This document shows, piece by piece, positions 2,752-30,853 of a stretch of DNA of 35,230 nucleotides. Each line of letters opens with the position of its first letter. The first letter of the stretch is position 1. The stretch spans positions 1 through 35,230 of the forward strand of contig JAOPYB010000074.1 of NCBI GenBank assembly GCA_025964835.1, in the 5' to 3' direction. The position numbers and the translations under genes were made by a program. The notes under the pieces are model-generated. The model was not told where the DNA came from. It did no database searches and saw only the letters and a program-made list of their open reading frames with translations. This DNA comes from Nocardioides sp. (GTDB taxonomy: Bacteria > Actinomycetota > Actinomycetes > Propionibacteriales > Nocardioidaceae).

Positions 2752-2755
2752 CCGG

Positions 2756-8828: not shown

Positions 8829-9716
8829 TCACATCCGGGCGTCCCCGGTCGCGGGCGTCCCATCAGGTCCGAGCCGTGCGGCGAGCAGGATCGCCTTGCG
8901 CACCAAGGGGCCCGCGATGCGGCGTCGGTAGCCGGACGTGGCCTCCTGATCGTCGAGGAACCGTTTCCCGGCCACGGGAACGAGTTCCAGTAGCTCGCGG
9001 ATCGTCTCCTCGGAGGTGTCCGCGCCGACGATGGAGTGCTCGATCGTGGTCAGCCGGACCGGACGGTCGAACAGCGCGCTCACGGCTATTCGTGCATCGG
9101 TGACTTCCGCGCCCTCGGTGCGCAGTACCACCGAGACGGTCCCGACGGACAGGTCCATCCCACGTCGGCTGAGCTTGAGCGTGGCGCCGCTCCAGCCGGC
9201 TTGGCCGGCGAGATCGTGGGTGACCCGGGTGATCAGGTCGTTGGTGCCCAGGCCCTTCTCGATCACCTCGGTCGCCGGCACTTGGCGACCCCCGTGGAGG
9301 TGGACCGTGGCGTCGAGGGCCAGCAGCGCGGGCACCACGTCGGCATTGGGGAAGCCCGAGGCGAGGTTGCCGCCGAGTGTCGCTAGGGTCCGGACGCTGG
9401 GGCCGGCGGTGACGCTCGCGGCCATCGTCAACGCACGGTGAGCTCCGGTCACGGGCCCGCGCTCGACCCGGCGGAGGGTCGCGAGCGCCCCGACCGAGCC
9501 GTCGAGTACCTCGTCGTGGTCCCTGATTCGGTGCAGGCTGATCAGGTGGTCCGGCATCGGCTCGCCTTTTGCCGCGCGCCACATCAGGTACGTCGATCCG
9601 CCGCTCAATGCGGCGTCGACCGAGTGCTCGGCCATCAGATCGGCCGCTTCTTGCCAGGTCTCCGGCGTGTGGACCCATCTGCCCATGCGCCCCGCGTGCG
9701 TCTGGATCGTGAACAT
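8829..9716 (-). CDS. FAD-binding subunit of molybdenum hydroxylase (CoxM/XdhB-like)
   Basis: DAALSGGSTYLMWRAAKGEPMPDHLISLHRI and TLATLGGNLASGFPNADVVPALLALDATVHL; CO/xanthine dehydrogenase FAD-binding domain motifs. Confidence 0.88.
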   Translation of the reverse strand: MFTIQTHAGRMGRWVHTPETWQEAADLMAEHSVDAALSGGSTYLMWRAAKGEPMPDHLISLHRIRDHDEVLDGSVGALATLRRVERGPVTGAHRALTMAASVTAGPSVRTLATLGGNLASGFPNADVVPALLALDATVHLHGGRQVPATEVIEKGLGTNDLITRVTHDLAGQAGWSGATLKLSRRGMDLSVGTVSVVLRTEGAEVTDARIAVSALFDRPVRLTTIEHSIVGADTSEETIRELLELVPVAGKRFLDDQEATSGYRRRIAGPLVRKAILLAARLGPDGTPATGDARM

Positions 9717-9779
9717 GGTGACCTCCTGGTCGCCTCGGCGTGAGGGTGGGCGTTGTCGGGACGTGCTGTGCAGCTGCGG

Positions 9780-10553
9780 TCAGAATCGGTTGAGTCGCCA
9801 GCCCCCGTCCACTGGCAGGACGGCACCATTGACCATGTCGAAGGGCGGGCCGCACAGGGAGGCCACCACCTCCGCGACCTCGGCTCGCGAGACCAGCCGT
9901 CCGGCCGGAGTGTGCCTGCGGGCCCGCTCGGCGAACGTCGGGTCGATGTCGGCGATGTCAGCGGCGCTCTCGTCTATCTGGCCCGGGGCGACGGCGTTGA
10001 CCGTGATCTCCGGCCCGAGCTCCAGGGCGAGCGACTCGGTCAGCGTCCCGATCGCGTCCTTGACCAAACCGTAGACCGAGTGGTTGCGGACGTAGGCCGA
10101 TCCGGCGGAGATGTTGACGATCCGCCCCCAGCCCCCGGCTCGCATGCCGGGGACGACCCGCTGCACAGCGCGCACAGTCGCGGTGAGATTTCCATCGACG
10201 ACCGACGCGAAGTCGCGGTCGGCGATCAGGTGGAACGGCTCGATCGAGAACGGCCCGTGGTTGTTGACCAGGATCTCGACCGGTCCACCCAGTTTGTCGT
10301 GCGCCTCGTCGGCCATCGTGCTGACCGCATCCGGGTTCGAGAGGTCCGCCTTCACCGCATGGTGCCGGAGCCCGGTCTGCTCACCGAGCTCGGCAATGAG
10401 GGCATCAGCCGCGCCCTTCGACTCCCGATAGGTCACGACGACCGTGGCGCCACGTCGCGCCAGCGACCGGGCGATGTCCGCGCCCAGGTTGCGCGAGGAC
10501 CCAGTGACAAGAGCCCGACGTCCGGCCAGCGTCTGGCTCGGCTGGCTGCTCAT
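9780..10553 (-). CDS. SDR family oxidoreductase
   Basis: ATG at 10553 (MSSQPSQTLAGRRALVTGSSRNLGADIARSLARRG); LVNNHGP, NISAGSAYVRNHSVYGLVKDA. Confidence 0.88.
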   Translation of the reverse strand: MSSQPSQTLAGRRALVTGSSRNLGADIARSLARRGATVVVTYRESKGAADALIAELGEQTGLRHHAVKADLSNPDAVSTMADEAHDKLGGPVEILVNNHGPFSIEPFHLIADRDFASVVDGNLTATVRAVQRVVPGMRAGGWGRIVNISAGSAYVRNHSVYGLVKDAIGTLTESLALELGPEITVNAVAPGQIDESAADIADIDPTFAERARRHTPAGRLVSRAEVAEVVASLCGPPFDMVNGAVLPVDGGWRLNRF

Positions 10554-10939
10554 CGTGTTGTGCTCGCGAACTCGGCGCCGACGTCGCTGTAGGTGAAGCC
10601 CTCGACGATCGTTCCGTCGACGAGCGTGATGACGGACGTGACCAGGACAAGCGCCTCGTCCGAAGCCGCGGACCGTAGCTCGACGACCCCGCGGGTGCCG
10701 TCCTCGTTGAGGATGAGGGCGGTGACCTCGATCGGTCGGGGAGTCCCCGCGAGGACTGCCTCGACCACGCCCCACACAGCGTCGGGACCTTCGGCTGTCT
10801 CGCCGCCGAGCGGCGTCCACCACCGGACACCGGGGGCGAGCACGCCCGTCGTCGCCCCGGGGTCGCCGGCCAGCCACGCGGCGACGAGCGTCGTCACGGA
10901 CTCGCGGGCCACGGTTTTGGCGTCCTGCATCTCGTCCAC
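10550..10939 (-). CDS. SnoaL/NTF2-like family protein
   Basis: LVAAWLAGDPGATTGVLAPGVRWWTPLGGETAEGPDAVWGVVEAVLAGTPRPIEV...ASDEALVLVTSVITLVDGTIVEGFTYSD. Confidence 0.7.
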   Translation of the reverse strand: MDEMQDAKTVARESVTTLVAAWLAGDPGATTGVLAPGVRWWTPLGGETAEGPDAVWGVVEAVLAGTPRPIEVTALILNEDGTRGVVELRSAASDEALVLVTSVITLVDGTIVEGFTYSDVGAEFASTTR

Positions 10940-10990
10940 TCCTCAGACGGCAGCACGATGACGGGTTGTTCCGCCGTCGCCCGCCAAGGC

Positions 10991-11019
10991 TTGCACAAGA
11001 ATCTGCCGAAGGCTAGTCT
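10991..11019 (+). promoter_or_regulatory. Putative promoter: TTGCAC -17 bp- TAGTCT
   Basis: -35-like 10991-10996 and -10-like 11014-11019; layout matches the promoter at 20780-20808. Confidence 0.5.
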
Positions 11020-11023
11020 TTCG

Positions 11024-11047
11024 CAACGACGTTGCACATGTTGCAAC
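11024..11047. promoter_or_regulatory. Putative operator CAACGACGTTGCACATGTTGCAAC
   Basis: 21 of 24 positions identical to 20813-20836; contains nested inverted repeats CAACG-N-CGTTG and GTTGCA-N5-TGCAAC; between divergent operons. Confidence 0.75.
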
Positions 11048-11105
11048 GCGCAAGGAAGCTGTACTCAACCCCGGTCGTTGAGGACACGTCAGAGGAGATC
11101 GTCAC

Positions 11106-11594
11106 ATGAGCACTCTTCGTTTGAACGGTCGGGAGGTCGCGGTGGCCTCGGCGCCCACCACTCCGCTTCTCGACGTCCTGCGGGAGGAAGTCGGGGACCT
11201 GAGTCCCAAGCCGGGTTGTCGTGAGGGCCGGTGCGGAGCCTGCACCGTGCTGCTCGACGGCGAACCAGTCCTGAGTTGCCTGCTCCCGCTGGGGCGCGCG
11301 GTCGACGGCGAGGTGACCACGGTGGCCGGCGCTGGTGTCGAAGGCCCCGTGCAGGACGAGCTGACCGTGCGGGTCCAGGCTGCCTTCGCCCGGGCCGGCG
11401 CCGTCCAGTGCGGTATCTGCACGACCGGCATGATGCTCGCCACGTGGGCCTTGCTCACCGAGCACCCGCAGGCCACGAAGGAACAAACCCTCGAGGCGCT
11501 GGTGAACAACCTGTGCCGCTGCACCGGCTATCAGAAGATCGTCGAGGCCGTCGCCACGCTGGCCGCGAGCGGATCGGGTGAGATCGATGGCTGA
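11106..11594 (+). CDS. (2Fe-2S)-binding subunit of molybdenum hydroxylase (CoxS/XdhC-like)
   Basis: KPGCREGRCGACTVLLDGEPVLSCLLP and QCGICTTGMMLATWALL...NNLCRCTGYQKIVEAV cysteine motifs. Confidence 0.93.
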   Translation: MSTLRLNGREVAVASAPTTPLLDVLREEVGDLSPKPGCREGRCGACTVLLDGEPVLSCLLPLGRAVDGEVTTVAGAGVEGPVQDELTVRVQAAFARAGAVQCGICTTGMMLATWALLTEHPQATKEQTLEALVNNLCRCTGYQKIVEAVATLAASGSGEIDG

Positions 11595-13869
11595 GCCGTT
11601 CTTCCGTAGTGACGCACAGGCCAAGGTGCGTGCGAAGGCTGTCTACGGCGTCGACCTCGAGGCGCCGCGCATGCTGCTAGGGCAGGTCGTGCGATCCGAC
11701 GTACCCCGTGGCCGGATCCTCAGCCTGGACGTCTCGGCCGCCGAGGCGATCCCAGGCGTCACCGTCATCACCGCCGCCGACCTCCCGGTGCCCAGGTACG
11801 GCATGGTCATCAGGGACCAACCGCCGCTGGCAAGTGAAAGGGTGCGCTTCTCCGGCGAGCCGCTCGCCGTCGTCGCGGCCCCCGACCAGGAGACCCTGGC
11901 GCGCGCCGTCGCGGCCGTGGTCATCGACATCGAGCCCGAGGCTGGTGTCTTCGACCTCGAGGAGGCCTACGGGCCGGGCGCTCTGCTCGTCCACTCCGAA
12001 CTCGCCAGCTACGAGCTCAATTTCGACACCGAGCGCGACCGCAACGTCTGCGGTCTCACCAAGATCGAGGTCGGCGATGTCGACGCCGCCTTCGCGGACG
12101 CGGCCCTCGTGGTGGAGGGCTCCTACTCCACGCCCCGGGTGCACCAGGGGTACATCGAGCCCCGAGCCTGTCTCGCGACCGTGGACGACGGGGGAGGGTT
12201 CCACGTCGTGACGAGCACGCAGAACCCGTTCGGCGTTCGCGGCACGCTCTGCGCTGTGCTGGGCATGCCCGAGTCGCAGGTCCGGGTCACCGCCTCCACC
12301 GTGGGCGGCGGTTTCGGCGGCAAGCTCGACGTCACCTACGAGCACTTCGCGTGCCTGCTCGCCCGCAAGTCCGGGCGACCGGTGAAGATCGTCTGCTCGC
12401 GCGCGGAGGAGCTCGCCACTGCGAACCCGCGCGAGAACTCGGTGGTCCGAATCCGGAGCGCGATCGACGACAACGGCCGGATCGTCGGCCGCGATGTCGT
12501 GTGCCTTCTCGACGCGGGCGCCTACGCGCACGACACCCCGTTCATCGGCGCCGTTGCCTCGGTCCAGGGCACCGGGCCCTACCTGATCGAGAACGCCAGG
12601 TCCGCAGCGGTCTCGGTCTACACCAACACCCAACCGACCGGCGCCTACCGCGGGCCGTCCGGGCCCCAGATGGTGCTCGCGGTCGAGGCGCATATGGACG
12701 AGATCGCCCAGAAGCTCGGCGTGGACAGGGCCGAGCTGCGCAGGAGGCACTTCTTCCGTGACAGAGACGTCGCCCTCAACGGACAGGTGCTCGAGCGCCC
12801 GAGCGCGCAGCAGTGCCTCGACCGCGCCCTGGCTGCGATCGACTACGCCGCCCCACGCCCGCCGGGTCGCGCCGTGGGGTTTGCGTGCGCCTGGTGGACC
12901 ACCACCGCCGGCGCCGCGGGGGCAACCGCGAGGCTCGAGGGCGACGGGACCATAGCGCTGATCACCGGCGGCACCGAGATCGGCTCCGGCGCGCTCGCGG
13001 CCGGCGTGGTGAGCTTGACGGCACGGGCTCTGGGTGTCCAAGAGAACGAGGTCCGGCTCGTCTCCACCGCAGACACGGCCACCGGCGCCTACGACTTCGG
13101 CGCCCAAGGAAGTCGCACCACCTTCAACATCGGCAATGCCGTCCTGGGTGCCTGCGACGAGATCCGGGACCAGATCTTCGAGGAGGCGGCGCATATGCTG
13201 GAGGCGTCCGCAGGTGACCTCGAGCTCGTCGCGGGCACCGTCAAGGTGCGCGGCGTCGAGGGCATGTCGGTGACCTTGCGAGACGTCGCTGCGGCAGCCC
13301 TGGGAACTAACGGCCCGATCCATGCGTCCTCGCGGTACGTCGCGCCACCGACCCCGTACGACGTCTCCTGCGTCGGCGCCCAGCATTTCTACCCGACCTT
13401 CAACTCTCCGAGCTTCCACTGCCACGCCGTCGAGGTCGAGGTGGACCCGGACACCGGTCATGTCGAGATCCTCAAGTACGTCGTGGCCCAAGACGTGGGC
13501 AAGGCGATCGTCCCGCCCGCTATCGAGGGCCAGATCCAGGGCGGCGTCCTGCAGGGCATTGGCATGGCCCTGTTCGAGGAGGAGCTCCTCCGTAACGGCG
13601 TGGTCAGCAACACCGGCTTCGACAGCTACAAATTGCCCACGATCATGGAGTCGACCACCGTGGAGTGCATCCTCATCGAGGAGCCCTCCACGGACGGACC
13701 CGACGGCGCCCGCGGAGTCGGCGAGCCGCCCATCATCCTCCCCGCCGCAGCGGTAGCGAACGCGGTCGCCGCAGCCACCGGCGCCGCCATGAATCACCTC
13801 CCCATGACGCCTGAGCTGGTGCTCCGGCACCTGGCCGCCGTCGAAAAGTCCCTCGGAACCAAGGTGTGA
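11587..13869 (+). CDS. xanthine dehydrogenase family protein, molybdopterin-binding subunit
   Basis: ATG at 11587 (alternative GTG 11578); VGGGFGGKLDVTYEHFACLLARKSGRPVK, PTGAYRGPSGPQ, catalytic-Glu motif GARGVGEPPIILPAAAVANAV. Confidence 0.92.
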   Translation: MAEPFFRSDAQAKVRAKAVYGVDLEAPRMLLGQVVRSDVPRGRILSLDVSAAEAIPGVTVITAADLPVPRYGMVIRDQPPLASERVRFSGEPLAVVAAPDQETLARAVAAVVIDIEPEAGVFDLEEAYGPGALLVHSELASYELNFDTERDRNVCGLTKIEVGDVDAAFADAALVVEGSYSTPRVHQGYIEPRACLATVDDGGGFHVVTSTQNPFGVRGTLCAVLGMPESQVRVTASTVGGGFGGKLDVTYEHFACLLARKSGRPVKIVCSRAEELATANPRENSVVRIRSAIDDNGRIVGRDVVCLLDAGAYAHDTPFIGAVASVQGTGPYLIENARSAAVSVYTNTQPTGAYRGPSGPQMVLAVEAHMDEIAQKLGVDRAELRRRHFFRDRDVALNGQVLERPSAQQCLDRALAAIDYAAPRPPGRAVGFACAWWTTTAGAAGATARLEGDGTIALITGGTEIGSGALAAGVVSLTARALGVQENEVRLVSTADTATGAYDFGAQGSRTTFNIGNAVLGACDEIRDQIFEEAAHMLEASAGDLELVAGTVKVRGVEGMSVTLRDVAAAALGTNGPIHASSRYVAPPTPYDVSCVGAQHFYPTFNSPSFHCHAVEVEVDPDTGHVEILKYVVAQDVGKAIVPPAIEGQIQGGVLQGIGMALFEEELLRNGVVSNTGFDSYKLPTIMESTTVECILIEEPSTDGPDGARGVGEPPIILPAAAVANAVAAATGAAMNHLPMTPELVLRHLAAVEKSLGTKV

Positions 13870-13873
13870 ACCA

Positions 13874-14980
13874 GTGAACGTCACGAACAGCGTCACCCCA
13901 GTGGAAGTCATCGACGAGGAGACCGTCGCCGACCTGGCTCTGGGCGCCACCTTGCTCGGAACCGGCGGGGGCGGTGACCCGCGCGTCGGTGCCCTGATGG
14001 CCCAGGCGGCCATCCGCGAGCATGGGCCCGTCCGGGTGCTCTCCCCGGATGCAGTCGGCGACGACGGCCTGGTGGTCCCGGTCGCGATGATCGGCGCGCC
14101 CACGGTGATCCTGGAGCGGATCCCCGGCGGACACGAGCTCGACCTGGTGATGCGTGGCTTCGAGCACCTCCAGGACCGGCCCGTGATCGCGACGATGCCG
14201 ATCGAGGCCGGCGGGATCAACTCGACGATCCCGCTGGTGCTGGCAGCCCGGCGCGGCATCCCCCTGGTCGACGCGGACGGGATGGGGCGAGCCTTCCCCG
14301 AGGTGCAGATGGTCACCCTCGGCGCTGGGGGCGTCCGGGCCTGGCCGCTGGTGCTTGCCGACGAGTCAGGCAACGTGGTCTCGATCTCGGATGCCTCCGA
14401 CAACGCCGCGGCGGAGCGGCTGGCCAGGGCCGCGGTCGTCGCCATGGGCGGGTCGGCGGTCGTCGCCCACTACGCGCTCGACGGGCAGCAGCTGCGCGAC
14501 TGGGCTGTTCCACACAGTGTCAGCCTCGCCATCGCGATCGGCAGGGCTCTCAAGCGGGCCCGGGCGGAGGGCTCCGACCCCGTGGAGGCGATCGGGCCCA
14601 TCTGTGGTGCGCGCAGGTTGTTCACCGGTCAGGTCACCGAAGTCGCACGGACCACCCAGGCGGGCTTCGTCCGCGGGCAACTCTCCCTCAAGGGACTCGA
14701 CGTGGACGCCGGACGGCACGCGGAGGTCGACTTCCAGAACGAGAACCTGATCCTCCGGTCCGAGGGCGCCGTTCTCGCGGCGGTTCCGGACCTGATCAGC
14801 CTGGTCGAGGCGGAGAGCGGGCAGCCGCTCACCACCGAAGGGATGCGGTACGGCATCCGCGTGCACGTGCTGGGGATCCCGTCCTCGCCTATCTGGTGGC
14901 GCCCCGAAGCGCTGCCCCTCGTCGAGCCACGGGCCTTCGGCTACGACATCGACCCGATCCGTATGGAGGACTCACGATGA
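13874..14980 (+). CDS. DUF917 family protein (S-methyl-thiohydantoin desulfurase-domain-like)
   Basis: ATLLGTGGGGDPRVGALMAQ, VPVAMIGAPTVILERIPGG, IATMPIEAGGINSTIPLVLAARRGIPLVDADGMGRAFPEVQM; DUF917 signature from memory. Confidence 0.85.
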   Translation: MNVTNSVTPVEVIDEETVADLALGATLLGTGGGGDPRVGALMAQAAIREHGPVRVLSPDAVGDDGLVVPVAMIGAPTVILERIPGGHELDLVMRGFEHLQDRPVIATMPIEAGGINSTIPLVLAARRGIPLVDADGMGRAFPEVQMVTLGAGGVRAWPLVLADESGNVVSISDASDNAAAERLARAAVVAMGGSAVVAHYALDGQQLRDWAVPHSVSLAIAIGRALKRARAEGSDPVEAIGPICGARRLFTGQVTEVARTTQAGFVRGQLSLKGLDVDAGRHAEVDFQNENLILRSEGAVLAAVPDLISLVEAESGQPLTTEGMRYGIRVHVLGIPSSPIWWRPEALPLVEPRAFGYDIDPIRMEDSR

Positions 14981-16563
14981 CCGTCCGCGTTGGTATCGAC
15001 GTCGGTGGCACGAACACCGATGCGGTTCTGCTCGACGATCACCACACGATCTTGGCCTCGGTCAAGAAGCCCACGACCGACGACATCGAGTCCGGTGTTC
15101 GCGCGGCCCTCGTGGCGGTTCTCGAAGGTCACGACCCAGCCATGGTGAAGCTGGCCATGCTGGGCACCACCCAGTGCACCAATGCGATCGTCGAGCGCCG
15201 CGGTCTGCGCCGGGTTGGGGTCCTGCGTATCGGCGCTCCCGCCACGACGGCCATCCCGCCCCTTGCCGACTGGCCCGCGGAGCTGCGCGACGTGGTGCTG
15301 GCGGATGCCCGCGTCATCCGCGGGGGCCACCACTTCGACGGGCGTGAGATCGCGCCGCTCGATCGGGACGCGGTACGGCGGGCTGCACTCGACTGGCACG
15401 GCACGGTCGAGGCCGTCGCCGTCTCCAGCGTCTTCTCGCCCGCCAGTCCGGTCCACGAGGAGGAGGCCGCCGCCATCCTGAGCGAGGTCCTGGACGTACC
15501 GATCTCGATCAGCTCCCGGATCGGTTCCATCGGGCTCCTCGAACGCGAGAACGCCACCGTCATGAACGCGGCGCTGACCGGTGTGGCCCAACGGGCGACC
15601 CGCGGTTTCGTGCTGGCACTGCAGTCCGTCGGCGTGTTGGCGACGCCGTACCTGAGCCAGAACGACGGAACCCTGATGACCCTCGCGCGTGCTGCCGAGT
15701 ATCCGGTGCTCACCGTAGCCTCCGGGCCGACGAACAGCCTTCGCGGAGGAGCGCTGCTCTCCGGCCGGAGCGACGCCATCGTCATCGACGTCGGTGGCAC
15801 CACCGCCGACCTCGGCGCGTTGCGCGGTGGCTTTCCCCGGGAGTCCGGGGTGGCAGTCGACATTGGCGGTGTGCTGACCAACTTCCGGATGCCGGACCTG
15901 GTCTCGGTCGCACTCGGCGGGGGCACCGTCGTACGTCGGACCGGGAGCGGCGTGCAACTCGGGCCCGACAGCGTAGGCCACGACATCACCCGCAAGGCAC
16001 TCTGCTTCGGCGGCGACACCCTGACCCTGACCGACGTGGCCGTCCTCGGTGGACTGTCCCTCGGCGACCGCAGCGCGGTGAGGGACAAGCTCGATGACCA
16101 CGCCGCCGCCGAGGTGCGAGCCGTCGCTCAGCAGCTGCTCGGACACGCGCTCGACCGGATGCGCACCAGTGCAGACCCGGTCACGGTCGTGGCCGTCGGA
16201 GGCGGCTCCTTCCTGGTGCCCGACGATCTCGACGGCGCGTCCGAGGTGCTCCGCCCGCCGCACCACGAGGTCGCCAACGCCGTCGGCGCCGCGATCGCGG
16301 AGGTCAGCGGCGAGGTGGACCGGATCTTCCGGCTGGAGGGAAGCTCCCGGGCCGAGGTGCTCGAAGGGGCCCGGATCGAAGCGCGGCAGCGTGCGGTCGA
16401 GGCCGGTGCTGACGAGACCGAGGTCCGCGACCTGGACCTGGAGGAAATCCAGCTCGCCTATCTCCCCGGCGACGCAGTGCGCATCCGGGCCCGCGCCGCC
16501 GGCCCGCTCTCGCGACACGAGCTTCTCCCCGCTGGTATCGAGAGCGCGGTGACCCATGGCTGA
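14977..16563 (+). CDS. hydantoinase/oxoprolinase family protein (HyuA-like, 528 aa)
   Basis: ATG at 14977; VRVGIDVGGTNTDAVLLDD, MLGTTQCTNAIVERRGLRRVGVLRIGAP, AIVIDVGGTTADLGALRGGFP. 4-nt overlap with the DUF917 gene. Confidence 0.9.
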   Translation: MTVRVGIDVGGTNTDAVLLDDHHTILASVKKPTTDDIESGVRAALVAVLEGHDPAMVKLAMLGTTQCTNAIVERRGLRRVGVLRIGAPATTAIPPLADWPAELRDVVLADARVIRGGHHFDGREIAPLDRDAVRRAALDWHGTVEAVAVSSVFSPASPVHEEEAAAILSEVLDVPISISSRIGSIGLLERENATVMNAALTGVAQRATRGFVLALQSVGVLATPYLSQNDGTLMTLARAAEYPVLTVASGPTNSLRGGALLSGRSDAIVIDVGGTTADLGALRGGFPRESGVAVDIGGVLTNFRMPDLVSVALGGGTVVRRTGSGVQLGPDSVGHDITRKALCFGGDTLTLTDVAVLGGLSLGDRSAVRDKLDDHAAAEVRAVAQQLLGHALDRMRTSADPVTVVAVGGGSFLVPDDLDGASEVLRPPHHEVANAVGAAIAEVSGEVDRIFRLEGSSRAEVLEGARIEARQRAVEAGADETEVRDLDLEEIQLAYLPGDAVRIRARAAGPLSRHELLPAGIESAVTHG

Positions 16564-17539
16564 GGCGTCGTACGACGTCGTCGGCGTCGGCGAGGTGATG
16601 GGTCTGCTCGACCCCGATTCCAGCGGTCCGCTCGAGGACGTGGACGGGTTCGCTCTCCGCATCGCCGGAGCCGAGGGGAACGTGCTGATCAACCTGGCGC
16701 ACCTCGGTCACACGACCGCATTCATCTCGGCGGTCGGGGCAGACCCCGTGGGCCGGCTGGTGACCCGCACTCTCGCCGAGCAGGGCGTGAACGTCGACCA
16801 CGTGTACGTCGACGACAGCGCCGGGACGGGGGTGTTCTTCAAGGAACGCCTCGGTGGCGAGGATCGGCGCGTCTACTACTACCGGGAAGGCTCCGCCGCG
16901 TCGCGCCTCGGTCCGGGCAAGGTCGATCTGAAGAAGCTCGGGGTGCCGAAGGTGCTGACCCTGTCCGGGGTCACTCTGGGACTGGGCGACGGAACCGGGA
17001 TCTCCGCTCTCGCCCGCAGCGTGCTGGACTGGGCGGCGGCGGGGCGGTGCCAGGTCGTTTTCGATCCGAACCTGCGGCCGTCGCTGTGGGACGGCGCCAG
17101 GGCCGTGGAGGAATTCGCAGAGCTGCTGCCCAAGATCGACGTCCTCCTGGCCGGCCGCGAGGAGCTGGCGGCACTGGTCCCGGGCACGGATCCAGCCGCC
17201 GCCGCTGATCGGCTGTGCGAGGCCGGCCTTGTGGCTGTCGTCGTCAAGGACGGCGCCAAGGGTGCTGTTGTCCACGAGGACGGCCGGGTCACCACCCTCC
17301 GGCCCTATCCCGTCGATGACGTTGTCGACCCGGTCGGGGCCGGGGACGCCTTTGCTGCCGGTGTGATCAGCGGATTGCTGCACGGGTGGCCGGTGCACGA
17401 GGGCGCCAAGGTGGGCGCGGTGCTGGGTGCGCGAGCGGTGACGATCCCCGGCGACTGGGCACCCAAGACGGTGGACAACGCCGGGACTCTTCTCGAGCAG
17501 TACAACACCGCGTTCGGCCTGGTGGGGGAACGGGCATGA
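16556..17539 (+). CDS. kdgK: PfkB-family carbohydrate kinase, 2-keto-3-deoxygluconate kinase-like
   Basis: GAEGNVLINLAHLGHTTAFISAVGADPVGRLV, GTGVFFKERLGGEDRRVYYYREGSAASRL, DVVDPVGAGDAFAAGVISGLL; KdgK-like motifs. Confidence 0.8.
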   Translation: MAEASYDVVGVGEVMGLLDPDSSGPLEDVDGFALRIAGAEGNVLINLAHLGHTTAFISAVGADPVGRLVTRTLAEQGVNVDHVYVDDSAGTGVFFKERLGGEDRRVYYYREGSAASRLGPGKVDLKKLGVPKVLTLSGVTLGLGDGTGISALARSVLDWAAAGRCQVVFDPNLRPSLWDGARAVEEFAELLPKIDVLLAGREELAALVPGTDPAAAADRLCEAGLVAVVVKDGAKGAVVHEDGRVTTLRPYPVDDVVDPVGAGDAFAAGVISGLLHGWPVHEGAKVGAVLGARAVTIPGDWAPKTVDNAGTLLEQYNTAFGLVGERA

Positions 17540-17922
17540 GGGACACCAAAGCGACCGTCGAGGCACTGTACGAGGCATTCCTGGCCGGTGATGCCGAGGG
17601 CATGCTCGCGGTGATGGACGAGGACGTCGAGGTGAGCTTCCTCGGGCAGGTCCAGCTGCACGGCAAAGACGAGGCCCGGCGCTTCTTCGAGTTCGCCAGC
17701 ACGTTGCTCGCCGACGTCGACTTCGCCCTGGAGGAGGTCGTGGTGGAGGACGATGTCGCCGCGGGCATCTGGCGAGAGACGGCGACCACGACGGCGGGCG
17801 AGCCCTGGCAGAACCACGGCGTCGATCTCATCCACGTTCGCGACGGCAAGGTCGTGGCGCTCCACGAAAACAGTGACGTCCGCAAGGTCTACCAGCACTT
17901 TCCGAGATACCAACCCAGCTGA
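17536..17922 (+). CDS. SnoaL/NTF2-like family protein
   Basis: ATG at 17536; VEALYEAFLAGDAEGMLAVMDEDVEVSFLGQVQLHGKDEARRFFEF...HVRDGKVVALHENSDVRKV. Confidence 0.8.
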   Translation: MRDTKATVEALYEAFLAGDAEGMLAVMDEDVEVSFLGQVQLHGKDEARRFFEFASTLLADVDFALEEVVVEDDVAAGIWRETATTTAGEPWQNHGVDLIHVRDGKVVALHENSDVRKVYQHFPRYQPS

Positions 17923-17962
17923 GCGAGCTCGGGTGACACACAACAGCGACAGGAGAACAGCA

Positions 17963-18982
17963 ATGGTTGCCCAATCGGTGGGTCTGGTCCTAGGCAGCGA
18001 GATCGCGCCCGACGAGATCCGGCCCATGGCTCTCGAGGCGGAGACGGCCGGCTTCGGTGAGATCTGGCTCTCCGAAGACTGCTTCTTCAGCGGCGGCATC
18101 TCCGGCGCCGCGATCGCGCTGGGAGCCACCGAGAGGATCCCGGTCGGCATCGGGGTGGTCTCCGCCGTGACGCGTCATCCCGCCGTGCTGGCGATGGAGC
18201 TGGCGACCCTCGACCGGGCCTTCCCCGGCCGGCTGATGCCGGCGGTCGGGCTCGGCGTCCCGGCCTGGCTCGGCCAGATGGGGCTGAAACCGGCCTCCGG
18301 CCTGGGCGCGGTGCGCGACTGCGTGACCATGCTCGGCACGCTGCTGGAGGGCGGCACCATCCAGTCCAACGCCACTTTCCACGCCGAAGACGTCCGACTC
18401 GTGCACGCCCCGAAGGGCAGCCTGCCGGTGCAGATGGGCGTGGCCGGTCCGAAGATGCTCCAGCTCTCCGGCGAGGTCTCCGGCGGCACCCTGCTCTCGG
18501 TGCTTGCCAGCGTGGAGTACGTGCGCTGGGCCCGGGCCCAGATCGACGAGGGTCGCAACCGCGCCGGGCGTTCGCAAGTACCGCACCGGATCACCACGTT
18601 CGCGCTCTGCGCCGTCGACGAGGACGGGCCCCGAGCGAAGGCCGCGGCGAAGAAGGCGGTCGCCTTCTACCTCGCCGCAGGCGGTCCCAACGCGATCACG
18701 GACGCCTACGGGATCAGCGACGAACTGCGGGCCCTGCTCGCCGTCGGCGGCCCGGAGCACGTCGAGCGTGAGATGCCCGGCCAGTGGGTGGAAGACCTGG
18801 CCGTGGCCGGCACCGCGGGCGAGTGCACGGCCAAAGTTCGGGCGCTGCTCGATGCCGGCTGCGACGCCGTCGCGCTGTTCCCCACGCCAGCAATGAATGC
18901 GCCAGCGACCGTGGCTGCGCTCGCCGCTCACGTACTTCCTCACTTCGCCGACCCGGACGAGAACAAGGAGTGGGCCAGATGA
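17963..18982 (+). CDS. LLM class (luciferase-like) flavin-dependent oxidoreductase
   Basis: ATG at 17963 with upstream aggaga; ALEAETAGFGEIWLSEDCF, RIPVGIGVVSAVTRHPAVLAMELATLDRAFPGRLMPAVGLG, VQMGVAGPKMLQLSGEVSGGTLL. Confidence 0.85.
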   Translation: MVAQSVGLVLGSEIAPDEIRPMALEAETAGFGEIWLSEDCFFSGGISGAAIALGATERIPVGIGVVSAVTRHPAVLAMELATLDRAFPGRLMPAVGLGVPAWLGQMGLKPASGLGAVRDCVTMLGTLLEGGTIQSNATFHAEDVRLVHAPKGSLPVQMGVAGPKMLQLSGEVSGGTLLSVLASVEYVRWARAQIDEGRNRAGRSQVPHRITTFALCAVDEDGPRAKAAAKKAVAFYLAAGGPNAITDAYGISDELRALLAVGGPEHVEREMPGQWVEDLAVAGTAGECTAKVRALLDAGCDAVALFPTPAMNAPATVAALAAHVLPHFADPDENKEWAR

Positions 18983-20142
18983 TGAACCGTCCTGCCGAGC
19001 GCATCCGGCTGATGCGTCGATCCGGCATCAGGGAGATCGCGGATCTGGCGGCCGGCCGGGCCGACGTTCTGCACCTCGAGATGGGTCAGCCCGACTTCCC
19101 GACGCCGGCGCATATCGTCGAGGCCGGTTGCGAGGCGGCACTGGGCGGGTTCACGACGTACACGGCGAACAAGGGTCTCTTGGAGGTTCGCGAGAGCATT
19201 GCGGTCAAACTCCAGCGCACCAACGGCATCACTGCGTCAGCCAAGGACATCGTCATCACGGCCGGAGCAGTCAACGCGCTGGCCGAGACCCTGGCCACCC
19301 TTGTCTCCCCGGGGGACGTCATCTTGATCCCGGACCCGGGCTGGCCGAACTACCAGATGATGGCCGACGTCCTTTCGGTGCATGCGGTTCACTACCCGCT
19401 GGTCGCCGAGGCCTGCTACGAGCCCGACCTCGACCGCCTGGACGAGCTCGCCCGCTCCTCGGGCGCCAAGGTACTGATGATCAACACCCCGGGAAACCCC
19501 ACCGGTGCGGTCTTCTCCGGCGAGATGACCGAGCGACTGGTCGAGCTCGCCGCGAGGCACGGCATGTACCTCCTCTCCGACGAGTGCTACGAACAGATCG
19601 TCTTCGAGGGTGAGCACGTCAGCCCGGCCTCGCTGGACGGCGCCGACCACGTCCTCAGCGTCTTCAGCATGTCCAAGAGCTATGCCATGACCGGCTGGCG
19701 GATGGGCTACGTGACCGGTCCCAGCGACGTGATCGAGCTTGTCGCCAAAGTGCAGGAGCCGCTGCTCAGCTGCGCGACCTCGATCTCGCAGAAAGCCGGA
19801 CAGGCGGCGCTCGAGGGCGAGCAGACGTGCGTCGAGGAGATGACTGAGTCCTACCGGCTCCGCCGGGACATGGTGGTCGACATCCTCCGCGAGAGTGGAC
19901 TGCTGATCTCAGTGCCCCGCGGTGCCTTTTACGTCATGGCCGACGTGTCGGCGGCGGGGCGGGACTCCTACGCGTTCGCTCGCCGGCTGGTCGAGGAGCG
20001 CGGCGTCGCGGTCGCCCCCGGCGAGACGTTCGGGCCCTCCGGGGCGGGCAAGGTCCGCCTCTCCCTGGCCACGGCGGCACCGGAGCTCCGTGAGGGCGCG
20101 GAGCGCATGGTCCGAGCGGTCGCCGACTGGTCCGGGGTGTGA
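18979..20142 (+). CDS. PLP-dependent aminotransferase, class I/II
   Basis: ATG at 18979; LEMGQPDFPTPAHIVEAG, MINTPGNPTGAVFSGEM, SDECYEQIVFEG, SMSKSYAMTGWRMGYV. Confidence 0.92.
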   Translation: MMNRPAERIRLMRRSGIREIADLAAGRADVLHLEMGQPDFPTPAHIVEAGCEAALGGFTTYTANKGLLEVRESIAVKLQRTNGITASAKDIVITAGAVNALAETLATLVSPGDVILIPDPGWPNYQMMADVLSVHAVHYPLVAEACYEPDLDRLDELARSSGAKVLMINTPGNPTGAVFSGEMTERLVELAARHGMYLLSDECYEQIVFEGEHVSPASLDGADHVLSVFSMSKSYAMTGWRMGYVTGPSDVIELVAKVQEPLLSCATSISQKAGQAALEGEQTCVEEMTESYRLRRDMVVDILRESGLLISVPRGAFYVMADVSAAGRDSYAFARRLVEERGVAVAPGETFGPSGAGKVRLSLATAAPELREGAERMVRAVADWSGV

Positions 20143-20783
20143 ACGCCGAGGCGCACGTCCGTGCGGGCCGGCTGATCGCGATCATCCGGGTGCCATCGCT
20201 GACCCGCGAGTCCGCCGCGGCGCTGACGTCGGTCCTGGTGGGGGAGGGTGTCCGTGCCCTGGAGTTCACGCTGACCAGCGACGGGGCCCTGGACGCGATC
20301 AGCGCGGCGAGGGAGGTCGCCGGTGACCGGGCGGCTGTTGGTGCAGGCACGGTGCTCCACGAGCAACAGGTGCAGTCGGTGGCAGACGCCGGTGGGCAGT
20401 TCATCGTCTCCCCGAACGTGTCGCCACCGGTCATCAGGCGCACCAACGAGCTGGGCCTGGTGCCCCTGCCCGGCGCGTTCACCCCGACCGAGGTCCAGCT
20501 CGCCGTGGACAGTGGTGCTCCCCTGGTCAAGCTCTTCCCGGCCCAGCCGGCCGGCCTGTCCTACTTCCGATCGCTGCGGGGCCCGCTGGACAAGGTCTCG
20601 TTCGTGCCGACGGGCGGGGTCGGTATCGATGACATCGAACCGTTCCTGTCGGCGGGGGCCGTCGCGGTGGCCCTGGGGTCATCTCTGGTGAGCTCCGTTG
20701 ATGACCTCGACGGGCTGCGCATTCGCGCACAGGCTGCCGTGAGGGCCGCGCAATCGCTCAGTTCCCCCCGCCCGACCTGTTGA
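20139..20783 (+). CDS. eda: bifunctional 4-hydroxy-2-oxoglutarate / 2-dehydro-3-deoxy-6-phosphogluconate aldolase-like (KHG/KDPG family)
   Basis: GTG start; RLIAIIRVPSLTRE, GVRALEFTLTSDGALDAI, VGAGTVLHEQQVQSVADAGGQFIVSPN, PLPGAFTPTEVQLAVDSGAPLVKLFPAQPAG, VPTGGVGIDDIEPFLSAGAVAVALGSSL. Confidence 0.88.
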   Translation: MNAEAHVRAGRLIAIIRVPSLTRESAAALTSVLVGEGVRALEFTLTSDGALDAISAAREVAGDRAAVGAGTVLHEQQVQSVADAGGQFIVSPNVSPPVIRRTNELGLVPLPGAFTPTEVQLAVDSGAPLVKLFPAQPAGLSYFRSLRGPLDKVSFVPTGGVGIDDIEPFLSAGAVAVALGSSLVSSVDDLDGLRIRAQAAVRAAQSLSSPRPTC

Positions 20784-20808
20784 CACCCAAACCCCCGAGC
20801 CACATACT
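20780..20808 (+). promoter_or_regulatory. Putative promoter of the ABC importer operon: TTGACA -17 bp- CATACT
   Basis: Consensus -35 at 20780-20785 overlapping the aldolase stop codon; -10-like 20803-20808. Confidence 0.6.
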
Positions 20809-20812
20809 CTTA

Positions 20813-20836
20813 CAACGCCGTTGCAGATGGTGCAAC
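20813..20836. promoter_or_regulatory. Putative operator CAACGCCGTTGCAGATGGTGCAAC
   Basis: Second copy of the 11024-11047 element; starts 4 nt after the -10 box in both copies. Confidence 0.75.
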
Positions 20837-20855
20837 ACTTCATCCGGAGGTACGC

Positions 20856-22481
20856 ATGACTTGGAAGGCCGTGAAAGGAAGGCAGGTGACGTTCCTCGCC
20901 CTTGCGGTGAGCAGCGCCCTGCTGGTCGGTTGCTCGACCAACCCGAACCCGCAGAGCTCAGGAGGCGGGGCTGTCGACCGCGAGGCGGTCATCAACGTCG
21001 CCCTCGGCTCTGACGTCGACCTGCTCGACCCCCACCAGTTCCGCACCGATGCCGCCTACGTCGTCACCGCGAACGTGTACGAGCCCCTGATCCGGCAGAA
21101 GTACGAGGAGAAGGACGGAGTCCTCCAGGGCACGGACGAGTACGAGGGCGCTCTGGCGAAGAGCTGGACGGTCAGCGAGGACGGCAAGACAGTCGAGTTC
21201 AAGCTGCGCCCCGGTTCCACGTTCGCCGACGGCACCCCAGTGACTTCGGCCGACGTGAAGTACACCTTCGAGCGTGCCTTGCTCGGCCCCGGCTACATCA
21301 CGGCGCTGCTGCCGTTCATCGGCATCGAGAAGGCCGACCAGATCGAGACGCCGGACGCGAGCACGGTCGTGCTGCACCCCTCCTTCAAGAGCCCGTTGTT
21401 CGAGCGCTTCATGACCTTCCAGGTCTTCGGCGCGATCAACTCCACGGTCGCCAAGTCGCACGCCACCACGGACGACCCGTGGTCGACCGCCTGGTTCAAG
21501 GACAATGTCACCGCATCCGGGGGCTATGACGTCGACAGCCTCGAACGCGGTCAGGAGACCATGCTGAAGCCGAACGCGGGCTTCTGGGACCAGAGTTCGG
21601 TGAGCAACGCCGGCGTCCGGCTGCTTTCGGTGCCGGACCCCGACCAGCGTGCGTTGCTGTTGCAGAGCGGTGACATCGACGTCGCCGACAGCCTGCCGCC
21701 GCGGCTGATCTCGCAGCTCGAGAAGGACCCGTCGCTGAAGATCAACCGGGTGCCGTCCAGCCGCATCACGTATCTCGGGATGAACAACGCGGTCGCCCCG
21801 TTCGACGACAAGCTGATCCGCCAGGCGATCTCCTACGCGATCCCCTACCAGGACATCATCGACAAGGTGCAGTACGGGTACGCCTCGCTGGCCAAGGGCC
21901 CGGTCCCCCCGGCCATGGGCACGTCCGCGGGTGAGGAGCTGTGGCCCTACGCGACGAACCTTGACAAGGCCAAGGACCTGATGAAGCAAGCCGGCAGCAC
22001 GGGCTTCGAGACCGAGCTCGCGGTGCGCCAGGCTCAACCGCAGGATGTGGAGGCGGCGGTGTTCATCCAGGACGCCCTACGCGAGATCGGTGTCAAGGTG
22101 ACGATCGCGCGCCTGCCGGACGCGGTCTACTACCAGCGCATGAACGAGCACAGCATGTCCATGTTCCTGCACGACTGGTTCTCGTGGGGTGAGGACCCGT
22201 TCTTCCAGATGAGCTTCCTGCTGAAGTCGGGCCAGTTCACCAACTACGCCAATTACAGCAACAAGGATCTCGACGCCCTGATCGACAAGGGCACCTTCGA
22301 GCTGGACGCTGACAAGCGGGCCGAGATCTCCCGCCAGGCGCAGGAGCTGGCCATCAACGACGCGCCGTGGGCTTTCCTCTACTCCGCCGACTACATCGTG
22401 GCGACGCGGAACAACATCAGCGGCGTGACCCGGCCTTACGACCAGACCTTGCGCTTCGAGTACCTGCAGAAGAGCAAGTAG
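20856..22481 (+). CDS. ABC transporter substrate-binding lipoprotein, family 5 (peptide/nickel/opine type)
   Basis: Signal peptide with lipobox LLVGC; ALGSDVDLLDPHQFRTDAAYVVTANVYEPL, DGTPVTSADVKYTFERAL, DNVTASGGYDVDSLERGQETMLKPNAGFW. Confidence 0.93.
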   Translation: MTWKAVKGRQVTFLALAVSSALLVGCSTNPNPQSSGGGAVDREAVINVALGSDVDLLDPHQFRTDAAYVVTANVYEPLIRQKYEEKDGVLQGTDEYEGALAKSWTVSEDGKTVEFKLRPGSTFADGTPVTSADVKYTFERALLGPGYITALLPFIGIEKADQIETPDASTVVLHPSFKSPLFERFMTFQVFGAINSTVAKSHATTDDPWSTAWFKDNVTASGGYDVDSLERGQETMLKPNAGFWDQSSVSNAGVRLLSVPDPDQRALLLQSGDIDVADSLPPRLISQLEKDPSLKINRVPSSRITYLGMNNAVAPFDDKLIRQAISYAIPYQDIIDKVQYGYASLAKGPVPPAMGTSAGEELWPYATNLDKAKDLMKQAGSTGFETELAVRQAQPQDVEAAVFIQDALREIGVKVTIARLPDAVYYQRMNEHSMSMFLHDWFSWGEDPFFQMSFLLKSGQFTNYANYSNKDLDALIDKGTFELDADKRAEISRQAQELAINDAPWAFLYSADYIVATRNNISGVTRPYDQTLRFEYLQKSK

Positions 22482-22486
22482 GCCTC

Positions 22487-22514
22487 GTCCGGGCCCGCTC
22501 GGGCGGGCCCGGAC
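22487..22514. terminator. Perfect 12-bp stem, 4-nt loop hairpin (GTCCGGGCCCGC-TCGG-GCGGGCCCGGAC)
   Basis: Arms 22487-22498 and 22503-22514, 5 nt after the SBP stop and before the permease gene. Confidence 0.75.
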
Positions 22515-22560
22515 CTCGTCGGCAATCGGCACCGCAAGCAAGACGTTCGGAGGGGTAGGC

Positions 22561-23586
22561 ATGACGCGGTTCTTGGCCCGTCGACTGGTGACTACGGCGC
22601 TGACGCTGCTGGGCATCGTTGTGGTGGTTTTCTTCGTGGTCCGGGTGCTTCCCGGCGACGCCGCCGTGCTGCGTGCCGGACCCTATGCCGACGCCGAACG
22701 GCTGGCGCAGGTCCGGGCTGACTACGGCCTGGACAAGCCGCTGTACGAGCAGTTCCTCTCCTACATGGGGGGCATCTTCCACGGCGATCTCGGCACCTCG
22801 ACGGTCTCCGGTGGGTCCGTGGCCTCCGAGCTCTTCTCGCGCCTCCCCGCGTCGCTGGAGATCGGTTTGTACGCCGTCCTGCTCGCGTGCCTGATCGGAA
22901 TCCCGATGGGTGTCCTAGCAGCTGCCCACCGCGGCGGGTGGCTGGACCGGATCGTGCGCCTCGGCGTGATCGCCGCGTCTTCGATGGCCATGTTCTGGCT
23001 GGGCCTGCTGCTGATCTACTTCTTCTTCTACCGCCTCGGTTGGTTCCCGGCACCGATCGCCCGGCTCCCGGCCGACGTCGGTCCGCCGCGGCACGTGACT
23101 GGCCTGTACACCCTGGACGCACTGCTGACCGGACAGGCCGGGCTCGCCTGGACCGTGGCACGTTCGCTGATGCTCCCCGTGTTGACCCTGACCGTCGCCC
23201 TGGTGGCGCCGGTCATGAAGATCGTCCGGCAGTCGATGATCGAGACGCTCGGCTCGGACTACGTCCGGACGGCGCGGGCGATGGGCGTGCCGGAGCGCCA
23301 TATCCTGATGCGCGACGGTCTGCGAAACGCCTTGCTCCCAGTCGTCACCGCGATCGGGATCGTGTTTGGCTACATGCTCGGCGGCAACATCATCGTCGAG
23401 ACCCTGTTCGCGTGGCCGGGCATCGGCCGCTATGCCTACCAGTCGATTCAGAACAACGACCTGGAGGCGTTGCAAGGATTCGTCATCCTCGTGGGCGTGA
23501 TGTATGTCCTCCTCAACGTCGTCATCGACATCTGTTACAGGCTGATCGACCCCAGAATCAGTGTCGGGGGGAAGGCGCGTTCATGA
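22561..23586 (+). CDS. ABC transporter permease (DppB/OppB type)
   Basis: MTRFLARRLVTTALTLLGIVVVVFFVVRVLPGDAA; ETLGSDYVRTARAMGVPERHILMRDGLRNALLPVVTAIG EAA motif. Confidence 0.95.
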   Translation: MTRFLARRLVTTALTLLGIVVVVFFVVRVLPGDAAVLRAGPYADAERLAQVRADYGLDKPLYEQFLSYMGGIFHGDLGTSTVSGGSVASELFSRLPASLEIGLYAVLLACLIGIPMGVLAAAHRGGWLDRIVRLGVIAASSMAMFWLGLLLIYFFFYRLGWFPAPIARLPADVGPPRHVTGLYTLDALLTGQAGLAWTVARSLMLPVLTLTVALVAPVMKIVRQSMIETLGSDYVRTARAMGVPERHILMRDGLRNALLPVVTAIGIVFGYMLGGNIIVETLFAWPGIGRYAYQSIQNNDLEALQGFVILVGVMYVLLNVVIDICYRLIDPRISVGGKARS

Positions 23587-24449
23587 GTGCTGAAGCAGCC
23601 GCCGTGACCGGCACGACCGCGTCACGCACGAACCTCCGGAGCCTCTGGGGCGTCGTCAGGGAGCACCCGATGGCAACCGTCGGCGTGCTCCTGCTGGTCC
23701 TCTTCGCACTGGCTGCCCTGTTGGGGCCACTGTTCGTGGGCGATCCGCTGAAGACCAACCCCGCACACGCCCTGGAGGCGCCGAGCGGGCACCGCCTCTT
23801 CGGAACCGACCGCTACGGACGCGACGTGTTCACCCGGGCCGTGGTCGCGGCCCGTCTCGATCTTGTGGTCGGCATCGTGATCGCGGGCCTGGCGACAGCC
23901 GTAGGATCCCTGATCGGTGTGGCCGCCGGCTACTTCGGGGGCGCGTTCGACGAGATCGTGATGCGGGTCACCGACATCGTGCTCGCCTTCCCCGGCTTCG
24001 TCCTGGCGCTGATCCTGGTCGCTGTCCTCGGCGACAGCGTTCCGAACGTCGTGGTCGCGGTGGCGATCGCCTATACCCCGTACTTCATCCGGTTGACCCG
24101 GGCGCGCGCTCTGGCGGAGCGGGAACGCGAGTACGTCGACGCCGCTGCCTTGGCTGGGAACCGGCGTTGGCAAATCGCCTACCGCCACGTGCTCCCGAAC
24201 AGCCTGTCGCCGGCCTTCACCCAGGCAGCCCTGGTGGCCGGATGGGCCGTCCTCGACGTAGCCGGCCTGGCATTCCTCGGCATCGGCATCCAGCCGCCAA
24301 GGGCCGAGTGGGGCGTGATGGTCGCGGAAGGCGCCAACGACTTCCTGACCGGGGCGTGGTGGACTGCCCTGTTCCCGGGTGCCCTGATCGTTCTGCTGGC
24401 GATGGGCTTCCAGCTCATCGGTGACGACCTGCAAGGAGGAGAGAAGTGA
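23583..24449 (+). CDS. ABC transporter permease (DppC/OppC type)
   Basis: ATG at 23583; HRLFGTDRYGRDVFTRAVVAARLDL, EREYVDAAALAGNRRWQIAYRHVLPNSLSPAFTQAAL. Confidence 0.95.
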   Translation: MSAEAAAVTGTTASRTNLRSLWGVVREHPMATVGVLLLVLFALAALLGPLFVGDPLKTNPAHALEAPSGHRLFGTDRYGRDVFTRAVVAARLDLVVGIVIAGLATAVGSLIGVAAGYFGGAFDEIVMRVTDIVLAFPGFVLALILVAVLGDSVPNVVVAVAIAYTPYFIRLTRARALAEREREYVDAAALAGNRRWQIAYRHVLPNSLSPAFTQAALVAGWAVLDVAGLAFLGIGIQPPRAEWGVMVAEGANDFLTGAWWTALFPGALIVLLAMGFQLIGDDLQGGEK

Positions 24450-25417
24450 GTCTCCTAGACGTCCGTGGCCTCAGCCTCGGCATCGCGGGCAGGGAGGAAC
24501 TGCTGCGCGACGTGAACCTCACGCTCGAGGCAGGCGAGGTCATGGGCATCGTGGGTGAGTCGGGGTCCGGCAAGACCATGACGGCTCTGGCGCTGCTGGG
24601 TCTGCTGCCGCCGTCGATGGAGATCCGAAGCGGAACCGCGACCGTCGAGGGCCGCACGGTCCTCGAAGCCGGTGCCCGGCGCGTACATCGTGCCTCCGGC
24701 GACATGACGATGATCTTTCAGAACCCACGTGGCGCCCTCAACCCGACGATGCGCGTCGGGGCGCAGGTTGGCCGGGTGCTCAGGGTGGTGCGGGGGAAGA
24801 CCCGCGCCGAGGCCGCCGCCGAAGCCGTGGCGCTGCTGCGCCGTGTCGGTATTTCCGGTGCTGAGCGGGTCGCCAAGGCGTACCCGCACCAGCTCTCCGG
24901 CGGCATGTGCCAGCGCGTGGTGATCGCGATGGCGCTGGCCTACCGGCCGAGGGTTCTGATCGCCGATGAGCCGACGACCGGTCTCGATGTCACGGTCCAG
25001 GCGCAGATCTTCGAGCTGCTGCGTGAGCTGGTCGACGAGACCGGTTGCGGGGTGCTGTTCATCACCCATGACCTGGCCGCAGTCGCGGACATGTGCGACC
25101 GGGTCTCGGTCTTGTACGGCGGACAGCTGATGGAGACCGCGACCACCGTGGAGATGTTCGAGCAGCCGAAGCACCCGTACACCCAGTTCCTGCTGGAGTC
25201 GCTGAAGCCCGAGGATCAGCAGGGCGAGGTCCAAGCTGCCGACGCGGGCGTGGACTTCTCGTTGCCCGGCTGCCGGTTCGCGCACCGGTGCCCGCATGTC
25301 TTCGACCGGTGCGCGGCGTTCCCGCCGCTTGTCGAGACCAACGACAAACACCTCTACTCGTGCTTCTTGGGACAGGAGAAGAGCCTTGACGCTGCTCAGT
25401 GTTCGCGGTCTGTATAA
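24446..25417 (+). CDS. ABC transporter ATP-binding protein (DppD/OppD type)
   Basis: GTG start; GESGSGKTMTALALLG Walker A, HQLSGGMCQRVVIAMALAYRPRVLIADEPTTGLD; C-terminal cysteine-containing oligo/dipeptide domain. Confidence 0.95.
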   Translation: MSLLDVRGLSLGIAGREELLRDVNLTLEAGEVMGIVGESGSGKTMTALALLGLLPPSMEIRSGTATVEGRTVLEAGARRVHRASGDMTMIFQNPRGALNPTMRVGAQVGRVLRVVRGKTRAEAAAEAVALLRRVGISGAERVAKAYPHQLSGGMCQRVVIAMALAYRPRVLIADEPTTGLDVTVQAQIFELLRELVDETGCGVLFITHDLAAVADMCDRVSVLYGGQLMETATTVEMFEQPKHPYTQFLLESLKPEDQQGEVQAADAGVDFSLPGCRFAHRCPHVFDRCAAFPPLVETNDKHLYSCFLGQEKSLDAAQCSRSV

Positions 25418-26360: not shown

Positions 26361-26433
26361 ACCCGATGACCTCGCATCTCCCGGAAACCCTTTCAACGGT
26401 AGGGTGGATGCGCCGCCGAGGGAGGTTTGACCG

Positions 26434-28422: not shown

Positions 28423-28516
28423 GTGTCCTCACTTTCGTCGTGGTCCGGAGTTCTGGGTGGTCTCCCGACCGGTCACCGCGTGGCAGGCGGCTCGCCAACA
28501 GTAAAGCAGTTTCGCC

Positions 28517-28563
28517 TTGCGTATATCAATCGCTCAGAAAAAGTTGCATATACAGACCGATTG
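28517..28563. promoter_or_regulatory. AT-rich repeat region in divergent vdh/bkdA promoter, putative Lrp/AsnC-type site
   Basis: Direct repeat TTGCGTATA (28517-28525) / TTGCATATA (28544-28552) interleaved with inverted repeat CAATCG (28527-28532) / CGATTG (28558-28563). Confidence 0.45.
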
Positions 28564-28743
28564 AGCAATCCTACCCCTCTGTCACCGAGTCGTGGTCAGC
28601 ACAGTCCCGGCCTTGCGGGCATCAGCCCGGGCACGGTCGGGCGTGGTCGCCGGCGACGTGGAAGCCAGATCCGGGGGCCCGGGCGCGGCTCGATGACTAC
28701 CTCGAAACGCGGCTCGTGGACGGGCCGGGAAGAAGGAGGATCG

Positions 28744-30845: not shown

Positions 30846-30853
30846 GAGTGCTG

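Follow-up and report, generated by a model that had tools for sequence, protein, structure and literature searches.

The short HyuA–DUF917 pair and its operon

The window, which is the whole analysed stretch of 35,230 nucleotides of contig JAOPYB010000074.1 from the Nocardioides sp. assembly GCA_025964835.1, contains two adjacent genes on the forward strand. The upstream gene (13874–14980, GTG start) encodes a 368-residue DUF917 protein, similar to S-Me-THD proteins, with Pfam matches to S-Me-THD_N (PF06032, 177 bits) and S-Me-THD_C (PF20906, 219 bits). The downstream gene (14977–16563, ATG start) encodes a 528-residue HyuA-like, ASKHA-type ATP subunit without HyuB, called here the short HyuA. 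It matches Hydant_A_N (PF05378, 131 bits) and Hydantoinase_A (PF01968, 93 bits), both above cut-off, the latter over only 172 of 291 positions. The two genes overlap in an ATGA stop/start (14977–14980, forward strand), and a Shine-Dalgarno-like GGAGG for HyuA lies inside the DUF917 gene (14965–14969, forward strand), 7 nt upstream of the HyuA start. The overlap and the shortness of the HyuA-like protein had both been pointed out in the initial annotation, and the two open reading frames and the partial Hydantoinase_A match bear this out.

Nearby junctions are also tight: the genes for the [2Fe-2S] and molybdopterin subunits upstream overlap by 17 nt, a 4-nt gap precedes DUF917 and HyuA overlaps the following PfkB gene by 8 nt. 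The DUF917/HyuA overlap is thus a habit of the window operon. In a control, dppB and dppC overlapped in 14 of 16 pairs of related loci, as often as the pair does, and the ATGA overlap was dropped as special evidence of partnership.

Upstream of the pair lie the genes of a molybdenum hydroxylase, with the FAD subunit on the reverse strand (8829–9716; PF00941, PF03450) and the [2Fe-2S] subunit (11106–11594; PF01799, PF00111) and molybdopterin large subunit (11578–13869; PF02738, PF20256, PF01315) on the forward strand. The forward-strand genes downstream encode a PfkB kinase similar to KDG kinase (16556–17539; PF00294, with IolC and KDG kinase as the best NCBIfam models, below cut-off), a Mer-like, probably F420-dependent LLM-class oxidoreductase (17963–18982; PF00296, 145 bits to the 5,10-methylene-H4MPT reductase model, below cut-off), a class I/II aminotransferase (18979–20142; PF00155) and a KDPG/KHG-type aldolase (20139–20783; PF01081, TIGR01182 above cut-off). 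These are followed, on the same strand, by a peptide-type ABC importer, made of an SBP_bac_5 substrate-binding protein (20856–22481; PF00496) and permease and ATPase genes recognised as open reading frames similar to the dpp genes of related loci (dppBCDF-like, 22561–26360), and by an IclR-family regulator (26434–27192; 181 bits to the KdgR and 189 bits to the BhcR model, below the cut-offs). Farther downstream (27328–32134), translations resemble a leucine/amino-acid dehydrogenase and a branched-chain 2-oxo-acid dehydrogenase complex.

The gene set at 8829–27192 is found nearly whole in Peribacillus glennii, beside genes for F420-biosynthesis CofD and F420 ligase. Judged by gene content, the two operons appear to encode a common catabolic pathway; their LLM proteins are only 27% identical. 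Reduced sets that combine molybdenum hydroxylase and LLM with DUF917 and HyuA are present in one locus each of an Acidimicrobiales, a Streptomyces, a Myxococcota and a Poseidoniales archaeon. One actinobacterial locus (L234, 2307–18511) combines a related LLM and an ABC importer with an allantoinase/dihydropyrimidinase-like amidohydrolase, a hydantoinase/carbamoylase-family amidase and a beta-aspartyl-peptidase-like gene. This single locus has the appearance of a hydantoin-type route sharing the LLM family of the window, which would fit ring opening at the step of the pair.

Neighbours that recur beside the pair in other genomes include Asp/Glu-hydantoin-type racemases, membrane dipeptidases, and cytosine-permease-like and peptide transporters. 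The neighbours vary among clusters, so the substrates probably differ among pairs. DUF917 is also described as enriched in cyclodipeptide-oxidase clusters, together with hydantoin racemases and peptide transporters, in passages of a study whose authors suggest that DUF917 is a hydantoinase (PMC11055893).

Distribution of the pair and occurrence of HyuB

A profile of seven short HyuAs was searched against 84,980 species genomes and found at least 80 loci; all seven seeds were taken from DUF917 loci, so the sample may lean toward their clade, and adjacency was no search criterion. DUF917 is adjacent and co-directional in 77 of the 80 short-HyuA loci listed, which span many phyla. Among these 77 it lies upstream in 53, downstream in 29 and on both sides in 5. 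Two of the exceptions (L066 and L128) have no DUF917 seen nearby on the contig, and in the third (L083) HyuA is at the contig edge. Counted from the DUF917 side, HyuA is carried by 26 of 28 Actinomycetota loci and 28 of the 30 top Bacillota loci, while none of 20 lower-scoring Bacillota loci had a co-directional short HyuA directly beside the low-scoring DUF917. Solo copies included, DUF917 is present in 53 of 300 sampled Bacillota genomes.

The HyuA/DUF917 junctions overlap in 55 of 78 measured pairs, with a median of −4 nt; starts were deduced from the profile position, which makes single gap values approximate. The 4-nt overlap recurs in the RefSeq annotation of Paenarthrobacter YJN-5 (557–1633 and 1630–3183) and of Parageobacillus thermoglucosidasius (8907–10004 and 10001–11560 in the locus). 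Pairwise distances of HyuA and DUF917 correlate across 80 pairs (r = 0.77, permutation maximum 0.12), a value that shared inheritance alone could yield.

The short HyuA–DUF917 pair is widespread in bacteria and archaea, its carriers including Bacillota, Actinomycetota, Rhizobiales, Chloroflexi and Haloferax. The window holds one case of this arrangement, in which an adjacent, co-directional DUF917 and a HyuA of about 515 residues are separated by a near-zero or negative gap. In many genomes the two proteins carry no more than the names “hydantoinase/oxoprolinase family protein” and “DUF917 domain-containing protein”. No same-frame natural HyuA–DUF917 fusion was recognised among the PF06032 matches listed; in the long open frames of three loci (L139, L151 and L153) the HyuA and DUF917 genes are in different frames.

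Copy number differs among some clusters. An Anaerolineales assembly has five DUF917 genes around one short HyuA (L062, 8782–15913), and Kribbella-type loci have three DUF917 genes per HyuA.

The source assembly (3.56 Mb in 546 contigs, 72% complete) contains matches to one HyuB, three HyuA and four DUF917 proteins. A second pair, on contig C27, has the short HyuA followed by DUF917, the order opposite to that in the window, and also an ATGA overlap. On contig C393, two DUF917 genes lie around a PucR-type regulator; the domain score of one equals that of the C27 protein, and the other is more distant. Some of the DUF917 copies on these two contigs may be strain variants in the assembly. The PucR-type regulator sequences of C27 and C393 are near-duplicates, for which strain variation is the probable cause. 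No DUF917 was found among the Nocardioides members listed in a sample of the order. A second sample yielded a full-length short HyuA in three further genomes of the genus, each time with DUF917 nearby in the locus. The pair is patchy in the genus, which is consistent with gene transfer.

HyuB was scored by a PF02538 search of whole genomes, which replaced a weaker detection on single fragments. Some HyuB turned up in 26 of the 38 genomes that carry the pair; the 12 in which the search found none comprise Rossellomorea, Psychrobacillus, Clostridioides difficile CD160, Hungatella, Eubacterium callanderi, three Paenibacillus, two Lentzea, Micromonospora and Kibdelosporangium; since several assemblies are drafts, single absences weigh less than the set of 12. 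In C. difficile R20291, DUF917, hydantoinase and permease genes (CDR20291_1615–1617) appear together in one differential-expression table (PMC12915319). The initial annotation had recognised no HyuB, and none is present in the window. The source genome does hold one, which would allow the short HyuA to work with a HyuB encoded elsewhere. This single PF02538 match (contig C272), however, adjoins its own long HyuA, and with a dozen pair genomes devoid of any HyuB such a cooperation is given almost no probability. The suggestion that DUF917 serves as a partner or follow-on subunit gains from the adjacency, the HyuB-less genomes and the distance correlation, which favour a dedicated partner replacing HyuB; the sulfur role proposed along with it finds no support.

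Features of the two proteins

The short HyuA aligns to residues 5–534 of the long HyuA (697 residues) encoded in the same genome, whose last 160 or so residues have no counterpart. Among solved structures, those closest to the short HyuA are N-methylhydantoinase, caprolactamase (deposited as 5-oxoprolinase) and the acetone and acetophenone carboxylase subunits. The phosphate-1 and phosphate-2 Asp motifs (DxGGTxTD and DxGGT) are kept, with D8–T12, D15 and D271–T275 conserved in 93% or more of 80 aligned sequences. D8 and D271 are the equivalents of D11 and D295 of caprolactamase CapA, mutation of which impairs activity (PMC8453981). The short HyuA lacks the GxxPGP motif, which in CapA is credited with binding adenosine (PMC8453981); in the alignment, GHDITR stands where the long HyuA has GADPGP. 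ATP use by the short HyuA is thus inferred from the other motifs.

The AlphaFold model of DUF917 has a pLDDT of 95.8 and a pTM of 0.94. In a Foldseek search, 2o3i was the only PDB match above noise, and a sequence-profile search likewise retrieved this entry alone, which argues that DUF917 is no disguised HyuB; its modelled fold is distinct from that of HyuB. A fused AlphaFold model of the pair, built from the same-frame neighbours of Nonomuraea sp. PA05 read through the stop codon, was of low confidence, with a pTM of 0.49, few aligned rows and the HyuA half poorly folded.

On a profile of paired relatives, DUF917s directly paired with HyuA score about 370 bits or more, with lower-scoring third copies in some clusters, and solo DUF917s score near 300 or 200 bits. 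Among the sampled groups, the Bacillota one at 200 bits comes closest to the thiohydantoin desulfurases, scoring 263–285 bits there (cut-off 440). Solo Bacillota groups with no co-directional HyuA neighbour (L189–L202, L204–L208) include one near these desulfurases and one far from them. Residues G31–34, E111, R139, N289–E290 and P305–D306 are largely common to paired and solo proteins, while E81, N116, E181, R259 and R329 are characteristic of the paired ones and differ in solo relatives (solo sets of 5–9 sequences). At four sites that are nearly invariant in the paired family, the window DUF917 has another residue (K253Q, D256E, D312E and G351E), a difference that could reflect a changed substrate or a weakened function.

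Proposed enzyme and comparison with known systems

The gene pairing, common junctions, independence of HyuB, kept phosphate motifs, non-HyuB fold and common DUF917 residues are observed and support a joint function. From them we infer, with moderate confidence, that the pair is a two-subunit, ATP-dependent enzyme for cyclic-amide ring opening, in which DUF917 replaces HyuB; this estimate covers the complex, the phosphorylation, the ring opening and the substrate class. The short HyuA would bind ATP and phosphorylate the carbonyl (lactim) oxygen of a small cyclic amide, for example a hydantoin, imidazolone or lactam. DUF917, standing in for the metal-containing HyuB, would bind the activated ring, and water would attack that carbon to open it. 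In the window, this step would be placed between the molybdenum hydroxylase or F420-type oxidoreductase and the aminotransferase and aldolase.

In solo DUF917 desulfurases, a sulfur substituent on a hydantoin-type ring is replaced by water. The phosphate introduced by HyuA would be a leaving group at the carbon equivalent to the sulfur-bearing ring carbon of these enzymes. Tentatively, HyuA-type ATP subunits may then have in DUF917 a second catalytic partner of unrelated structure, HyuA phosphorylating the ring carbonyl and DUF917 hydrolysing the product by the sulfur-leaving-group chemistry of its solo relatives. The route proposed for caprolactamase similarly involves lactim phosphorylation in CapA, after which CapB would carry out the hydrolysis at its metal site (PMC8453981).

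Since what joins the two proteins is gene pairing, HyuA and DUF917 might also be separate consecutive enzymes, one activating or opening the ring and the other acting on a different intermediate. The existence of solo DUF917s and the two to five DUF917 genes per HyuA in several clusters (L062, L068 and L099) agree with such a division, but the pairing holds across many pathways and phyla, in both gene orders and beside different neighbours, which is easier to explain for subunits, and separate enzymes are considered unlikely. A role of HyuA as an ASKHA-type ATPase for the activation or repair of DUF917, with no action on the substrate, is improbable. The short HyuA does keep the ASKHA core and has lost the C-terminal region and GxxPGP of catalytic HyuA subunits; its closest solved relatives, however, are catalytic, and solo DUF917s occur with no HyuA neighbour.

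The initial annotation had linked DUF917 proteins to thiohydantoin desulfuration and suggested a possible sulfur- or nitrogen-heterocycle step. In the sulfur reading, the pair would serve to desulfurate a thiohydantoin or S-methyl-thiohydantoin, a reaction of ergothioneine breakdown, and HyuA would be a follow-on enzyme. DUF917 belongs to the right family and matches both desulfurase equivalogs (NCBIfam NF058532 and NF058529) weakly, but with 89.1 bits against a cut-off of 450 and 72.6 against 440 it is farther from them than some solo DUF917s, which reach up to 285 bits. Ergothioneine-utilisation neighbours (ErtD and ErtE models) are absent from the NCBIfam matches listed for ten window neighbours, and desulfuration is very improbable here.

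Should the tentative reading of DUF917 as a second catalytic partner be true, such pairs would form a widespread class of ATP-dependent hydrolases that act on cyclic amides and need no HyuB. Viewing HyuA and DUF917 as a single enzyme also offers a concrete assay for a widespread gene pair, and would account for how hydantoin- or lactam-like compounds might be degraded in lineages that lack HyuB. No experimental description of a HyuA–DUF917 pair was found in the published work searched, and the literature on diketopiperazine or cyclic dipeptide hydrolases and on thiohydantoin desulfurases gave no direct precedent for it. The DUF917 family is described as experimentally uncharacterised in a paper discussing its function. 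What would be new is a HyuA-type system with a different second subunit; the pair itself is already common in annotation.

Several known systems share parts of this arrangement. CV_3147 (PDB code 2o3i), an uncharacterised protein with about 25% sequence identity, has the same fold as DUF917 over the full length (TM 0.79). The cyclodipeptide-oxidase clusters share the enrichment in DUF917, but the passages of that study on DUF917 do not name HyuA as its partner (PMC11055893), and no such oxidase was recognised in the window. The S-methyl thiohydantoin and thiohydantoin desulfurases belong to the same two-domain S-Me-THD family and have G31–34, E111, R139, N289–E290 and D306 in common with the window DUF917. 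Unlike them, the window protein is paired with HyuA, falls far below the equivalog cut-offs and belongs to the group in which E81, N116, E181, R259 and R329 are specific to paired members. The HyuA/HyuB family (N-methylhydantoinase, caprolactamase CapAB, 5-oxoprolinase, and acetone and acetophenone carboxylases) shares with the short HyuA the N-terminal ASKHA-type core, both phosphate Asp motifs and an adjacent, co-directional partner gene. In contrast to this family, the short HyuA does not contain the C-terminal region of about 160 residues or GxxPGP, and the place of HyuB (PF02538) with its metal site would be taken by DUF917, a partner of a different fold.
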